Below are positions 10,312-22,555 of a DNA stretch of 64,000 nt, piece after piece (position 1 is the stretch's first letter; each line of letters starts with the position of its first letter). The stretch is from Candidatus Peribacterales bacterium (GTDB lineage Bacteria > Patescibacteriota > Gracilibacteria > Peribacterales > Peribacteraceae). Under the pieces are notes generated by a model. That model did not search any database. It was not told the DNA's origin and was given only the letters and a program-made list of their open reading frames with translations. The DNA is taken from contig JAGVDM010000006.1 in the NCBI GenBank assembly GCA_020058765.1, forward strand, positions 117,488 to 181,487, written 5' to 3'. The position numbers were made by a program, and so were the translations under genes.

Positions 10312-11349
10312 TCAGGCGAGCAGCTGCATAAACCTCTCTCTCCCCAGCGATTGTACGTGTGCGGCACCAATCCGAATAGGAACAGCGATGCGCACCTCAT
10401 TTCCGACATTCTTTTTGTCATTGCGCATAATGTCCCACAGTGCGCGCACATCGATATCGCGAGGAATATGCACGGGCATATCGAGTATTTCCAGTGCACG
10501 GAGAACACGCTGGCGATCGGGGAAATCGGAGAGTGCCATTTCACAGGACATACCAATACTCACCGCCTTGCCATGAGAAAGAGAAAATTGTGACAACGCT
10601 TCAAGCGCATGCCCCACAGTGTGACCGAAGTTCAACGTATGCCGCAGTTCGATGCCGTGACCCATGGCTTCTGTTTTGATACGCGCGGCATTCTCTACTG
10701 CAGCCTCCAAAGCACCATCCTCACGTGCAACCACTCGCTCGAGATTCTCTTCCAGCCAACCAAAGTACTCGCTATCTAACACGGCGCCGAGTTTTACGGC
10801 TTCCACGAGGCCTTCGCGCAGTTGCGCATCGGGCAATGATCCTAGGATATCCAAATCAACCAAAACGGCTTCTGGATACCACTCATGACCAATGACATTT
10901 TTCACTGGCCCAGCATTCACATACACCTTTCCACCAATGGCGGCATCGGCCATACCGAGCAGGGTCGTGGGAATATTCACAAAACGAATTCCGCGCATGT
11001 ACACAGCTGCAAGGAATCCTCCAAGATCAGAAATCATCCCGCCGCCCACGTTCACAAGGAGAGAATGACGTGTGGCGTGCTGCAGAAGCAGTTCGCGAAC
11101 TAATGCATCAACTGTTTCGAGCGATTTGGATGCCTCACCGGAAGGCACAGGAAGCAGAACGGAATCGGGCACGAGAGACTGCACACGCTCTGCAATATCC
11201 TGCAATGCGGTGTCATGAAGAATAAAGACGCGATCTACATCTGCCAGGCGCTCCAAGAGGCTTAAAATGCCTTGAGCGGCACCATGACCAACTGTCACCG
11301 CACATGCGCGAACAGGAACAGCGGCGATGTGCAGGTTAAAGGTCTTCAT
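10312..11349 (-). CDS. aroB: 3-dehydroquinate synthase
   Basis: NVGGGMISDLGGFLAAVYMRGIRFVNIPTTLLGMADAAIGGK and HTLNFGHTVGHALE motifs. Confidence 0.95.
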   Translation of the reverse strand: MKTFNLHIAAVPVRACAVTVGHGAAQGILSLLERLADVDRVFILHDTALQDIAERVQSLVPDSVLLPVPSGEASKSLETVDALVRELLLQHATRHSLLVNVGGGMISDLGGFLAAVYMRGIRFVNIPTTLLGMADAAIGGKVYVNAGPVKNVIGHEWYPEAVLVDLDILGSLPDAQLREGLVEAVKLGAVLDSEYFGWLEENLERVVAREDGALEAAVENAARIKTEAMGHGIELRHTLNFGHTVGHALEALSQFSLSHGKAVSIGMSCEMALSDFPDRQRVLRALEILDMPVHIPRDIDVRALWDIMRNDKKNVGNEVRIAVPIRIGAAHVQSLGRERFMQLLA

Positions 11350-11383: not shown

Positions 11384-12904
11384 TCACGCACGACGACGCA
11401 CAACTGCAAATGCAGTCGCATTTCGCGGATCGTGGTGCACGGATTCCGCGAGGACTTTCAGGCCGTAAAACTCCGCTGCACGCTTGGAGGCAAACACGCC
11501 CTTCGTTTTTGGCAATGCTCCCGTTGCTAGCAGCTTGGCAGAAAGCGCTGTATCCATTTCGTCTGTTGCTGGCTCCACAGGGATATCCGGCCAACGTTGT
11601 GCAAGCGTAAGCCTGCATTGGCTCAAGGCAATTGGATGGCCAAAGAAAGCATCGAGCTGATAAATATCGTGAATATCCGGATGCCCAAGAATGCACATGT
11701 TGATCGGCATGGTAAACAGTGCGAGCACGTCGAATTGGTACTCACCCATTGCCTGAATGGATTCGACGTATCCGCCCGAACCGGAGTTGGCGAATGCGAA
11801 AATACCGCGATCCACTTCGCCCTGTGCAACGGCACGCAGCACGTTTGCAGAGTGTACAAGCTCAACAACAGAAAAACGCGATTCGGGGACATGGAGAATC
11901 TCCGTCGCAAAGCGGTGCCACGCCTCATCGGTAAATGCGCCGCGTATCCCATGAATCCCAACCGAAACCTGCGATCCTTCCGGCAGAATATCTCCAATCG
12001 GTGACAACTTTTGCACGTATAAATCGGAAGCGGTTGCTGCCGCTCGGCCGAGGAATGTTTCATTCATGAGGTGAAAATCCTGCGTGACGTATTCGAGTAT
12101 CGTGGACTCGAAATTCTGCGGTGCACGAATGGCGCGCGCATCTTTGAGTTGCTGCTGCATGAATGCATCAATGCGCTCGAAAAATGCATCGTCGGCTAAT
12201 GCGCGGAACACCTCCTGGCATGTATCGAGAAACTTTGGCGATACATCGAGCAAAAGATCTTTCCGGAGCCACAATGGCACCGAATAGACTGCCTGAAAAT
12301 GCGCTTTAATCAGCGATGCAAATGATGGCGATGTGCACTTCAGCACGTTTTCGAGTGTGAGTGTTTCTGAAGACTGCGCCGCATATCTGCGCAGGAATTC
12401 CGAGAGGAAGACCGACACCATCTGCGGCATCCCAAGCACGATGGACATAAGAAGATCATGCTCCTCTGCACTCGTCACCGAGTGCATCATGACTTTCTTT
12501 TCTGAGAGCAAATCCAGAAACCACTGTGCGCGCGGATGATTGGGGATCTCACCAACCGTTACCCACTTCTGTCGCGTCCATGGAGTATGGGGCCCGTTCA
12601 TTGGATGCACAGAAAAGTACTGCGCGCCCGTAGCTGTGACGGTTTCACGTAAGTTGTGTTTCACGCTGCAAATATCTATGACGAGCTGAGACGGTGAAAG
12701 CTGCACTCCTCGCAAAACATCTTCCACCGCGGATTGTGGCACCGAGAGAATGATAATTTCCGATGTGAGTGCACGAGAAATCTCTTCAGCACTCGACGTT
12801 CTCCTTAGTGGAAAAAGCTGAGATTTTTTCTCGAGTAGGGGCGTGAGCACATGTGCCCCCATATCACCGCGAGCGCCGAAGAGAGCGACTGTAGGAAGTG
12901 TCAT
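11384..12904 (-). CDS. fused prephenate dehydrogenase (TyrA-like) / prephenate dehydratase (PheA-like) protein
   Basis: N-terminal Rossmann TyrA region (VALFGARGDMGAHVLTPLL, HPMNGP) and C-terminal PheA-like region (GIHGIRGAFTDEAW, ANSGSGGYVESIQ, ASKRAAEFYGLKVL). Confidence 0.85.
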   Translation of the reverse strand: MTLPTVALFGARGDMGAHVLTPLLEKKSQLFPLRRTSSAEEISRALTSEIIILSVPQSAVEDVLRGVQLSPSQLVIDICSVKHNLRETVTATGAQYFSVHPMNGPHTPWTRQKWVTVGEIPNHPRAQWFLDLLSEKKVMMHSVTSAEEHDLLMSIVLGMPQMVSVFLSEFLRRYAAQSSETLTLENVLKCTSPSFASLIKAHFQAVYSVPLWLRKDLLLDVSPKFLDTCQEVFRALADDAFFERIDAFMQQQLKDARAIRAPQNFESTILEYVTQDFHLMNETFLGRAAATASDLYVQKLSPIGDILPEGSQVSVGIHGIRGAFTDEAWHRFATEILHVPESRFSVVELVHSANVLRAVAQGEVDRGIFAFANSGSGGYVESIQAMGEYQFDVLALFTMPINMCILGHPDIHDIYQLDAFFGHPIALSQCRLTLAQRWPDIPVEPATDEMDTALSAKLLATGALPKTKGVFASKRAAEFYGLKVLAESVHHDPRNATAFAVVRRRA

Positions 12905-14055
12905 GCGCGCAGAGAACGGAGTTCTGCTTGAGTGTACGGCGTACCAAGGGTGAATACCATCATGGGGCTACCGAACGAATGGATCTTCGTAAGCTCCTGC
13001 TGATCACGGGTACCAATGCGACCGCTCTCAGTAGTAATGCAGTATTCCACCTCGCGGTTGCGCACCATGTCGGCAGCGGCGGCGTTGGATGTTGCATCCA
13101 CCCATTCGGCATACGGATCTTGCCCTGCAATCCATGGTTGCATGAGCGGTTTTGGAGAACCATGTGTTGCTACACGAGGCCGATGACCATTGCTCTCCAC
13201 ATCACCAAGTGCAGCGAGCTGCATTTCATCAAGAGGCATGTACTGGTGATCGGCAAAGAGAAGCTCCATGCGTTCGCGTACGCGGTCTTGATACAATTTG
13301 GGCATACCGAAGTACACGGCACATTCCATATGCAGCGGTACCGTGCCTGCGCGCTTCTCTGCGGCGGCAAGTTCAGCATACTGTATCGGTGTAATGCCAC
13401 GAGGGTGCACGGTCAGATCCGACTTCCCTGCAATGCCAAGATTGCGAAGGTACAGCTCCGATGCCTGTGCAATATTAGTACCCTGCGGACCAAGTGCATG
13501 AAGACGCACGTGTTCCACAGCGGGTGATGCAAGAATCTGGCGCAGATCGTGGTTCGTGACGATGTCCGAACCCATCACTGCCTTCATGCTCTCAGAGCGC
13601 TCTCGCTCGAGTACAGCTGTTGTAGGGCGAGTGGATGATGCCTCGGTTTGGCGAAGGCCGTGTGCAGTGGTACCGATGGTTCGCAGTGTGAGGGCGTCTG
13701 CGCCACCGGGGTCGCGAATGTACTGATGATCCACAAAGCTCGCGACTCTTGGCGTACCGAAGTATCGCTTTGGTAGATCGGGATTGGTAGCGCTGTCGAT
13801 GAAGAGCGGCACAACACCATGAGCGTCTTCATCTGCCAATGCCTCGTACGGAATACCGCCTGAGACTTCTGTCACTTGCAGCTTGGATCGTATGCCAAGC
13901 ACACGCGCATAGATCTCAGCAGCTTCGCGGTTTTGTGGTTCACAAACGCAATGTAATGTGCGCACGTCTGGATGACGCAATGCATGACCGAACTGTTCGG
14001 GCTCAGGCTGCGTGCCTGTTGGGAACGAAGAGAGGGATGGAAGAGTAGTAGGCAT
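12901..14055 (-). CDS. internally duplicated protein resembling the prephenate dehydratase/BacA-type prephenate decarboxylase fold
   Basis: LGPQGTNIAQASELYLRNLGI and DATSNAAAADMVRNREVEYCITTESG motifs; two related copies of about 90 aa; overlaps the TyrA-PheA start by 4 bp. Confidence 0.55.
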   Translation of the reverse strand: MPTTLPSLSSFPTGTQPEPEQFGHALRHPDVRTLHCVCEPQNREAAEIYARVLGIRSKLQVTEVSGGIPYEALADEDAHGVVPLFIDSATNPDLPKRYFGTPRVASFVDHQYIRDPGGADALTLRTIGTTAHGLRQTEASSTRPTTAVLERERSESMKAVMGSDIVTNHDLRQILASPAVEHVRLHALGPQGTNIAQASELYLRNLGIAGKSDLTVHPRGITPIQYAELAAAEKRAGTVPLHMECAVYFGMPKLYQDRVRERMELLFADHQYMPLDEMQLAALGDVESNGHRPRVATHGSPKPLMQPWIAGQDPYAEWVDATSNAAAADMVRNREVEYCITTESGRIGTRDQQELTKIHSFGSPMMVFTLGTPYTQAELRSLRA

Positions 14056-14067
14056 AAGGAATAGGAA

Positions 14068-14490
14068 TCAGGCGGATACAAGTTCATCGGAATGCACAGC
14101 AATAGGCTCCTGCGCTCGCGCTGGCTGCTTGTCTCCCACGGTAATATGCGAACCATTGTGGTTGCGAACGAGCATACGGATTGTTTCAACCGTTCCTTCG
14201 CGATCTTGCTCCAGACGATCCAGCACTGCTTGCACGCACTCTGCACGAGGCAGCATTTCAACGGAGAGCGATGGGATGGAAATAGGGACATGCGACAGGT
14301 GCGGTGCATTCCTGAGCGGCACAACCAATTCAATCGCCTCACGAATATCGAGAGTCTGAGGTTCTGCGGCAGCATCGCGTTCCTGCATTGCAGCAAGTTC
14401 TTCTGTTGTAGGTGGAAGATTTGCTCTGTAGGTTCCCGCACGCCCTTCGGCGCGGAGAAGAAGGAATTGTTCTGATGGAAGAGATGGCAT
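14068..14490 (-). CDS. hypothetical protein, first gene of the aromatic cluster
   Basis: ORF 12 bp upstream of the 12901-14055 gene, same strand. Confidence 0.55.
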   Translation of the reverse strand: MPSLPSEQFLLLRAEGRAGTYRANLPPTTEELAAMQERDAAAEPQTLDIREAIELVVPLRNAPHLSHVPISIPSLSVEMLPRAECVQAVLDRLEQDREGTVETIRMLVRNHNGSHITVGDKQPARAQEPIAVHSDELVSA

Positions 14491-19617: not shown

Positions 19618-21768
19618 TCAGTGATGCGGCATGTGTTCTTTCACAGTATCTACCAAGCCGTGACGAGGATGACCATGCATCACATGTGTCGCCTGTTTCA
19701 TGGAATCCTTTGCCATATGCTTGATGCGCTTGAGAAGACGATATCGACGATGGGTGTGATGTGCGAGGTACCCCCCGCCGCCCACAATCACTCCGCCGAT
19801 GATGAGCCAGAACACTGCCACGCCTGCACTGCGCAGGAACGCAACGAACGATGCCCACGCAGATGGAAACAGTTCCAGCTGTTGCGCAACAGACAGGCGA
19901 GAAAGAAGCATGTCGCGCTGTGCGTCGTTGAACGGGGCAAAGAGCGTGTCGCGCTGCTCCTGAGATAAGCGCGAGAGCGTGCCAAACAGTGCCCAAGGAC
20001 TGAGCTTATTGAGCACCCGAAACAACACAGCAGGATCAATCGATTCAAGAATGTCGTAGAGGAAGTCCGCCGGCAGTTTGGCAAAAATCTCGGCAAGAGC
20101 GTCACCATCGAGCTGTTCGAGCACCATGCCACGATGATCAGGACTCATAAGACCAAGAGCAGCACCAAGCTGTTCAGGGGAAAGCCGAGCAAGGAAATCG
20201 CGGAGCACGCCACCCTTGAGCGTAGGCACGAGTGCCGCGAGCGCATCGGGGCTCAAGTTGTTTATAAGCTGCCGGTACTCCTCGTCTGTAACGGACGGAA
20301 ACAGAATTTCCCGCTGTTCATCGCCAAGTTTCGCGAGTAGCTTCGCCTGCTCTGCAGGAGGAAGTGATCGAAGCAATGCATCACGCTCTTCTAGAGTGAG
20401 CGTCTCCAACACAGTGCGGAGATCATCGGAAGAGAGTTTGTTCAAAATTTCCGCCTTCTTTGCCGGATCCAGCATGTCGAGCGTCTTGCGGAGATCAGCC
20501 GGTGAGAGCGTGGTGAGCACATCGCCCAGTGCCTCCGAAGGAAGTGTGGAGAGCACTTGGCCAAGTGCTTCTGGCGGCAAAGTGGTAAGCACATCTGCAA
20601 GTGCCTTAGGAGGCAGCTTCGTAAGAATATTTGCGAGATCGGTGGGCTGGAGCCGCATGAGCGTGCGTGCACGATCTTCTGGCGGCAGCGACGTGAGCAC
20701 GTCTGCTACATCTTCGGGCGACAATGATGTAAGTACAGTGCCCAACTCTTCTGGTGGCAGCTTGTCGAGAGTCTTTGCAAGCTCTTCGGGAGGCAAGGTG
20801 GTCAGCACTTCTCCGCGTTCCTCAGCGGAGAGTGACATGAGCACTTTCGCAAGATCTTCACCTTCCAACGCACCGAGCGTGGTGGCCAAATCTTCCGGGG
20901 ACATCTCTGTAAGCAGACTGGCGAGTTGCTCTGGTGGAAGGGTGGTGAGCAACGCGCCAAGTTGCTCCGGAGGGAGAACATCAGCAAGATCGGCAACACC
21001 CTCTGGTCCGAGTGTACTCACCATCTGTTGCACCTGTTCAGGGCGGAGTTTTCCAAGCAATGCAAAGAACGACTGCGCATCGAGACTGCTCAGGAAATCA
21101 ATGAGCCCATCGGGAGACAAGCGAGAGAGAATTTCGCTCCACTCATCGGGGCTCAGACGCTCAAGTAAATCGCGAAGTGCATCGGCATTCAAACGAGAGA
21201 GGAAACCAGCAAGACCATCGGGAGTGAGTGATCGCAGGCTTTCCATAATTGCCGACGGTGAGAGCTTGTCGAACAGTGCTCGCAGCGAATCGGGAACGAG
21301 CCCTGCCAAGAACCTGCCAAGCTGATCTGGCGTGAGGCTGCGTAAAAAATTCTGCAATTGTTCGGTGGGCACACCGTCCAAAATGCTGGAGAAGTCATTG
21401 GGTCCAAGATTGATAAGATGATCAACGAATGAGTCCCGTGCGGCAACGGGATCACCTTCTGCGCCGCACTCGGTAGTATCTCCTTCTCCTCCGGCAAGTG
21501 TGCCAAAGCAGCGAATCGCCCATCGACGATCGCGCGAAGGCAAATCGCTTCTTGGCCGATTGGTGGTGCCACCACTCTCACGATCAAGAATCTCTCTGTC
21601 TGATTGGCCAGAGGGTGTCAGCGAGCCTCCATCGAGAAGATTGGGAATACGACCCAAACGACCTTCATTATCGAAATACGTTGCCTGTGCAGGTGCTACG
21701 GCACAAAGCGCTGCGGCACAGGCCAACACGCTGCAGAACACCCGACCCAAGGAACGCACAGAATGCAT
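19618..21768 (-). CDS. secreted, membrane-anchored 12-residue-repeat solenoid protein
   Basis: Signal peptide, 43 contiguous 12-mers of type LPPEELAxxLxx, C-terminal TM and His-rich cytoplasmic-like tail. Confidence 0.85.
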   Translation of the reverse strand: MHSVRSLGRVFCSVLACAAALCAVAPAQATYFDNEGRLGRIPNLLDGGSLTPSGQSDREILDRESGGTTNRPRSDLPSRDRRWAIRCFGTLAGGEGDTTECGAEGDPVAARDSFVDHLINLGPNDFSSILDGVPTEQLQNFLRSLTPDQLGRFLAGLVPDSLRALFDKLSPSAIMESLRSLTPDGLAGFLSRLNADALRDLLERLSPDEWSEILSRLSPDGLIDFLSSLDAQSFFALLGKLRPEQVQQMVSTLGPEGVADLADVLPPEQLGALLTTLPPEQLASLLTEMSPEDLATTLGALEGEDLAKVLMSLSAEERGEVLTTLPPEELAKTLDKLPPEELGTVLTSLSPEDVADVLTSLPPEDRARTLMRLQPTDLANILTKLPPKALADVLTTLPPEALGQVLSTLPSEALGDVLTTLSPADLRKTLDMLDPAKKAEILNKLSSDDLRTVLETLTLEERDALLRSLPPAEQAKLLAKLGDEQREILFPSVTDEEYRQLINNLSPDALAALVPTLKGGVLRDFLARLSPEQLGAALGLMSPDHRGMVLEQLDGDALAEIFAKLPADFLYDILESIDPAVLFRVLNKLSPWALFGTLSRLSQEQRDTLFAPFNDAQRDMLLSRLSVAQQLELFPSAWASFVAFLRSAGVAVFWLIIGGVIVGGGGYLAHHTHRRYRLLKRIKHMAKDSMKQATHVMHGHPRHGLVDTVKEHMPHH
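19861..21408 (-). repeat. 43 x 36-bp coding repeat array (12-aa units)
   Basis: Manual alignment of translated units from LGPNDFSSILDG to LSVAQQLELFPS without insertion or gap. Confidence 0.9.
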
Positions 21769-21877
21769 CGAAATATGATACCACAAAAACGCCCCTTTGG
21801 GCAGCCCCCTGGCACGCATACAGCCAAACAGCACCGTCCTGGTTGCCCGAGCACCGCTGAACACGTAGGCTGCACCC

Positions 21878-22555
21878 ATGCAAAAAATCCTCATCCCCCT
21901 CCTTTCATTTACGTTGCTTGCGGCCTGCGCAAGTGGCAGTTCCAACCCAGAAAATATGCATACTGTAATTCTGCACACCTCACTCGGCGATGTGACGGTG
22001 GAAATTGATGGAAACGCTGCACCAAAAACAGCGGAGAACTTCCTTACACATGCGCGGAACGGCTACTACGACAATCTCACGTTCCACCGTGTCATCCCCG
22101 ATTTTATGATCCAGGGTGGTGACCCAACCGGCAATGGTTCGGGTGGCGAGAGCATCTGGGGAGGCAAGTTCGAAGATGAAATGAACGCGGAGAGCTACAA
22201 ACTGCACCGCACTCGGCTGGCAGAAATAACCGATGAACCGCTCCCAGCAGAATTGGCGAACATGACCGTACAGGAGTACTACGAACGCCAAGGCTACCAG
22301 TACGATGACTCGCTAGAATCCCACCCAATGGAACGCGGATACCTTGCAATGGCGAATGCTGGTCCCAATACAAACGGCAGCCAGTTCTTCATTATCACGC
22401 GCAAGGAAGGCACAGATTGGCTCAACGGAAAGCACACGGTATTCGGGAAAGTGCTCGAGGGCATGGAGATTGTAGATGCCATCTCCAACGTCGACCGTGG
22501 AGCAAATGATAAGCCAGTTACGCCTGTGACATTCACCGTAGAGGTGATCGACTAG
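21878..22555 (+). CDS. cyclophilin-type peptidyl-prolyl cis-trans isomerase lipoprotein
   Basis: Lipobox LLAAC; YYDNLTFHRVIPDFMIQGGDPTGNGSGG; NGSQFFI. Confidence 0.94.
   Translation: MQKILIPLLSFTLLAACASGSSNPENMHTVILHTSLGDVTVEIDGNAAPKTAENFLTHARNGYYDNLTFHRVIPDFMIQGGDPTGNGSGGESIWGGKFEDEMNAESYKLHRTRLAEITDEPLPAELANMTVQEYYERQGYQYDDSLESHPMERGYLAMANAGPNTNGSQFFIITRKEGTDWLNGKHTVFGKVLEGMEIVDAISNVDRGANDKPVTPVTFTVEVID

Follow-up and report, generated by a model that had tools for sequence, protein, structure and literature searches.

A putative TdaC-like member of the prephenate dehydratase superfamily with a duplicated N-terminal lobe, encoded beside tyrosine and phenylalanine biosynthesis genes in Peregrinibacteria

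Introduction

TdaC, from a poorly understood branch of the prephenate dehydratase superfamily that also includes BacA, is encoded in the tropodithietic acid (TDA) gene cluster of Phaeobacter. Its role has been called obscure (PMC7497051), and TDA is also made by a strain without TdaC (PMC13163973). TdaC and TdaC-like proteins consist of a single domain of approximately 175-210 aa, and their genes lie in or near apparent biosynthetic clusters. BacA, likewise a single-domain protein (approximately 200 aa) from an antibiotic cluster, is a non-aromatizing prephenate decarboxylase involved in bacilysin formation (PMC9147277). Canonical prephenate dehydratase (PDT, PheA; PF00800), in which the TRF motif has been described as critical (PMC10845154), belongs to the same superfamily.

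A 384-aa open reading frame (ORF) in the window, the 64,000-nucleotide stretch of Candidatus Peribacterales DNA analysed here, had been described in a first-pass annotation as an internally duplicated PheA/BacA-like protein and a possible prephenate-processing enzyme. The sequence bears out this ORF at the stated coordinates, together with the peptides quoted in that annotation and the motif at the C-terminus (Table 1).

Results

Homologues of the 384-aa protein

Homologues were found in two other genomes among 353 searched in the class, G210 and G311, both metagenome-assembled genomes (MAGs) of Candidatus Peregrinibacteria. The G210 homologue (382 aa, 45% identical) has the same duplication and the G311 homologue (222 aa) is a single-domain form. 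A contig search with the full-length window ORF as query returned nothing. A sample of 380 genomes from across the phylum yielded one marginal match (E = 0.0026) and no additional clear member of the family. No phage match was found, and the viral contig search gave one short, unusable match. The family, known here from these three members, is rare.

Table 1. Features of the locus and of the 384-aa protein (window coordinates).
Feature	Position	Strand	Evidence or remarks
AroB-like 3-dehydroquinate synthase, next gene downstream	10312..11346	-	TIGR01357, 280.6 bits (below the cut-off of 305)
TyrA (prephenate dehydrogenase)-PDT fusion	11384..12904	-	PF02153, E = 3e-9; PF00800, E = 1e-26
TdaC-like/PDT-superfamily protein with duplicated N-lobe, 384 aa (predicted)	12901..14055	-	frame-specific codon-usage signal; homologues in two other genomes
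C-lobe and tail, residues 278-384	12904..13224	-	motifs THxSP, TSNAAA, CITT, FGxPxMxFTLG
Copy 2, N-lobe of complete PDT-like domain, residues 181-277	13225..13515	-	alignment to TdaC-like proteins
LGPQGTN motif, residues 188-194	13474..13494	-	common to TdaC-like proteins; as LGPxG also in E. coli PheA
Linker between copies, residues 118-180	13516..13704	-	alignments; no recognisable C-lobe motifs
Copy 1, N-lobe-like half-domain without LGPxGT, residues ~31-117	13705..13965	-	self-alignment, hhalign
ORF of 140 aa, function unassigned, upstream; membership of the unit uncertain	14068..14490	-	coding signal; no family match

Duplication of the N-terminal lobe

The coding signal of the 384-aa ORF, derived from codon usage, was confined to its own frame. 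Smith-Waterman alignment of the N-terminal with the C-terminal part of the protein gave a score of 90, compared with 31 ± 5 (s.d.) for 1000 shuffled versions, none of which reached 90. The related stretches covered residues ~44-126 and ~197-286. An hhalign comparison of copy 1 (two sequences) with copy 2 plus C-lobe (three sequences) yielded a probability of 96.9% over 80 columns. These results confirmed the doubled segment and the unusual architecture proposed in the first-pass annotation, and the LGPQGT that it had placed at the start of the second copy was found there as part of LGPQGTN. The proposed extent of the duplication had to be reduced: the approximately 100 residues that follow the second stretch have no clear counterpart behind the first, indicating that one lobe of ~85-95 aa was duplicated and not a whole PDT domain.

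Judged from its sequence, the protein is composed of a predicted half-domain, a linker and one complete, two-lobed PDT-like domain (residues 181-384). Residues ~31-117 are interpreted as a copy of the first lobe that arose long ago and in which LGPxGT was later lost. At the DNA level, the sole surviving direct repeat between the copies measured 14 nt, which indicated that the duplication is old. A low-confidence AlphaFold model predicted a beta-alpha-beta-alpha-beta order for copy 1. In the published literature searched, no duplicated form of such a protein was found.

Copy 2 resembled the N-lobes of TdaC-like proteins (Smith-Waterman z of ~13-15 against Pxia and SS70), and copy 1 showed no detectable resemblance to them. 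All copies nevertheless formed a single group against the TdaC-like proteins (support 100/99), which places the duplication in the lineage of the Peregrinibacteria family. The N-lobe of the G311 protein grouped with copy 1 (89/87) and has no LGPxGTN, its C-lobe matched the copy-2 side, and block identities along this protein were mixed. Unequal crossover between the copies would be the simplest account of the G311 form.

Placement in the prephenate dehydratase superfamily

On its own, the window ORF gave no significant Pfam or NCBIfam match. The C-terminal half of its G210 orthologue gave a hit to the NCBIfam prephenate dehydratase model (E = 2.7e-7) that spanned nearly all of the domain. In tblastn searches of a plasmid collection, the window C-half retrieved TdaC-like proteins of Pantoea SS70 (5e-6) and Pseudoalteromonas xiamenensis (3e-5), and the G210 C-half retrieved Phaeobacter TdaC (~1e-7). 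Matches of annotated BacA proteins to the G210 C-half were weak (E ~0.1). The PDT/BacA-type profile match expected from the first-pass annotation was obtained, hhalign aligning the family with a TdaC-like profile at 99.5% and with canonical PDT at 93.7% probability.

In a 22-row tree, with a midpoint root only and a long branch to the window family, this family grouped with the TdaC-like proteins (99/96), and the TdaC-like proteins, BacA and the window family together were split from canonical PDT (100/99). BacA fell outside the group of TdaC-like and Peregrinibacteria proteins, farther away than TdaC. TdaC and TdaC-like proteins aligned with the window protein over the whole domain and shared with it the motifs LGPxGTN, THPAP, SNxxAA, CITT and FGxxPMxFT; unlike the window protein, they have no extra lobe. 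BacA lies on the same side of the superfamily as the window protein relative to canonical PDT but is without the CITT and FGxPM motifs. The PheA/BacA-like identity assigned in the first-pass annotation therefore stood as regards the superfamily and the affinity to the BacA side, supported by profiles and tree, but the nearest described relative is TdaC rather than BacA.

Both AlphaFold models, built from three and five sequences, were poor (mean pLDDT 53 and 46), and Foldseek with the first of these yielded only weak, scattered matches and none at E ≤ 0.001, so that the fold assignment rests on sequence. In a comparison of the window ORF with PDB sequences, the top match, a capsid fusion protein, involved short, weak segments and was discarded as unusable. 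By the homology described above, residues 181-384 are assigned to the prephenate dehydratase superfamily but not to canonical PDT, and the 384-aa protein is most likely a divergent member on its TdaC/BacA side.

Gene neighbourhood

The start codon of the TyrA-PDT gene overlaps the stop codon of the 384-aa ORF by 4 bp, in the window as in G210, and its translation is probably coupled to that of TyrA-PDT. G311 has the ORF first, then PDT, then TyrA, with a 3-bp gap behind the ORF. The family gene thus directly precedes PDT/TyrA genes in all three genomes, and the branching order of the partner PDTs in a tree matched that of the ORFs. The TyrA-PDT proteins of the window and G210 are 58% identical, with catalytic positions kept. 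The partner PDTs (L040, 3256-4770; the fusion in the window; L041, 2632-3285) form a distinct subgroup with FAFANS for PIENS and NxTxF for NxTRF, and that of G311 has Met at the Gln215 position.

Among the three genomes, an AroB-like gene behind TyrA-PDT occurred in the window only. Its product may be a different sugar-phosphate cyclase; it reads GGKVYVN where G210 AroB has GGKTGVN. The upstream 140-aa ORF was considered as a conserved partner and dropped, because the equivalent position in G210 is occupied by an ORF with no similarity to it. Elsewhere in the window, the product of positions 19618-21978 is large, repeats a short leucine-rich unit (LPPEELxxVLxxLSPED) many times and has a hydrophobic stretch at its C-terminus.

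With TyrA-PDT and AroB-like genes as its neighbours, the window locus is without bacilysin-type neighbours. TdaC-like genes, for their part, had no TyrA-PDT partner at the loci viewed. Several of them (L047, L048, L053, L054 and L055, on plasmids of Pantoea, Pseudoalteromonas, Serpentinimonas and Staphylococcus) lie beside genes for DUF6421, ATP-grasp and transporter proteins, with partners that vary. These surroundings suggest an unrecognised biosynthetic cluster.

Residues of the complete domain

Alignment with canonical PDT showed that LGPxG is kept in the complete domain. E159-N160 is replaced by V247-Y248, SHP by T-H298-G, Q215 by L304 and TRF by T369-L-G, of which the threonine alone is kept; the equivalent of T369 is invariant in the family. 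The canonical signature of Asn160, Gln215 and TRF was thus not found in the window protein, which differs from PheA also in its separate clade and added lobe. Asn160 and Gln215 are important for catalysis by E. coli PDT. Within the family, the Asn160 position varies (Tyr in the window, Phe in G210, Asp in G311); Tyr at this position also occurs in BacA and TdaC-like proteins. Two blocks, ADHxxMPLDEMQLA and CITTESGR, are nearly invariant in all three proteins. The PDT domain of the adjoining TyrA-PDT retains all three of Asn (N373), Gln (Q429) and Thr (T497) and is therefore likelier to act as dehydratase than the 384-aa protein.

Shikimate-pathway genes

Family searches of the window's genome (99.3% complete) did not detect chorismate synthase, AroE or DAHP synthase as represented by PF00793. 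This genome keeps the AroB-like, TyrA-PDT and TdaC-like genes. Its single EPSP-family protein reads as MurA, and its sole chorismate mutase candidate, below the PF01817 cut-off, is a 78-aa ORF (L058, 1489-1725, minus strand). The latter adjoins a gene resembling a type IV pilus ATPase. For G311, no chorismate synthase was among the matches listed, and neither AroE nor an EPSP-family protein was matched. G210 carries the full shikimate and tryptophan gene set in one operon, on another contig than the family gene. With the aro genes organised in this way, one loss event or a gap in the assembly would suffice to account for the lack of them in the window's genome.

Discussion

From homology, repeat architecture and gene linkage we infer, with moderate confidence, a divergent protein, coupled to tyrosine and phenylalanine synthesis and on the TdaC/BacA side of the superfamily, that binds prephenate or a closely related cyclohexadienyl acid and catalyses a non-canonical reaction. 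The cleft of the complete domain would accommodate this ligand, which would then undergo a reaction other than that of the canonical dehydratase, and the extra lobe may serve as a packing or interaction module. This proposal is supported by the shikimate/tryptophan operon kept in G210, by the invariance of T369 and by the linkage in three genomes. The position of the P. xiamenensis TdaC-like gene near a DAHP synthase/chorismate mutase gene is consistent with a prephenate substrate. Several observations argue against this proposal: the equivalents of Asn160 and Gln215 are replaced, the former at a variable position; the G311 protein has no LGPxGTN; chorismate synthase, DAHP synthase (PF00793) and AroE are missing from the window's genome; and the neighbouring PDT probably supplies dehydratase activity already. 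We know of no pathway in these bacteria that uses decarboxylated prephenate, and TdaC, whose role has been called obscure (PMC7497051), offers little guidance as to the reaction. Given the operon context, the label of prephenate-processing enzyme proposed in the first-pass annotation appears plausible, although the canonical residues are replaced.

The chief alternative to an enzyme is a non-catalytic regulatory subunit, a PDT-like sensor of prephenate, phenylalanine or tyrosine that would control TyrA-PDT as a substitute for an ACT domain, contacting it via the extra lobe. Its standing as main rival derives from the replaced Asn160 and Gln215 and from the TyrA-PDT fusion of the window, which ends with its PDT domain and gave no ACT match. 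Variation at one canonical position within the family, the near-invariance of the two sequence blocks and the adjacency to PDT/TyrA genes in all three genomes also fit such a role. Retention of T369 and of the HxSP motif argues against it, as does the occurrence of the nearest branch, TdaC and BacA, in biosynthetic clusters, BacA being a demonstrated enzyme (PMC9147277); we consider a regulator possible but doubtful.

A second prephenate or arogenate dehydratase, that is, an ordinary diverged PDT forming phenylpyruvate or phenylalanine, would agree with membership of the superfamily and with the precursor-supply role by the same reaction suggested for TdaC (PMC7497051). It is improbable, as the protein falls outside the canonical PDT clade (100/99) and essential PDT residues that the adjoining PDT has retained are replaced in it. 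That the gene is a decaying relic, without function in the window's genome since this lineage lost the shikimate pathway, as the genes missing from a 99.3% complete genome might imply, is very improbable in view of its intact reading frame with coding signal, the 4-bp overlap retained as in G210, the conserved TyrA-PDT with intact catalytic positions, and the retention of both pathway and gene in G210.

The family bears on TdaC as well. TdaC is a protein of an antibiotic cluster, and from the linkage of a relative to TyrA/PDT in three genomes it would seem that this branch handles prephenate-type compounds; the three proteins offer a short set for testing the chemistry of this branch. In the same family, a PDT-type domain acquired an additional lobe, which one lineage may have lost again by recombination. 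More tentatively, a new lobe-duplicated PDT-family protein may serve tyrosine and phenylalanine synthesis in Peregrinibacteria, either as a prephenate enzyme whose reaction is new to primary metabolism or as an allosteric subunit, derived from PDT, that replaces the ACT domain.
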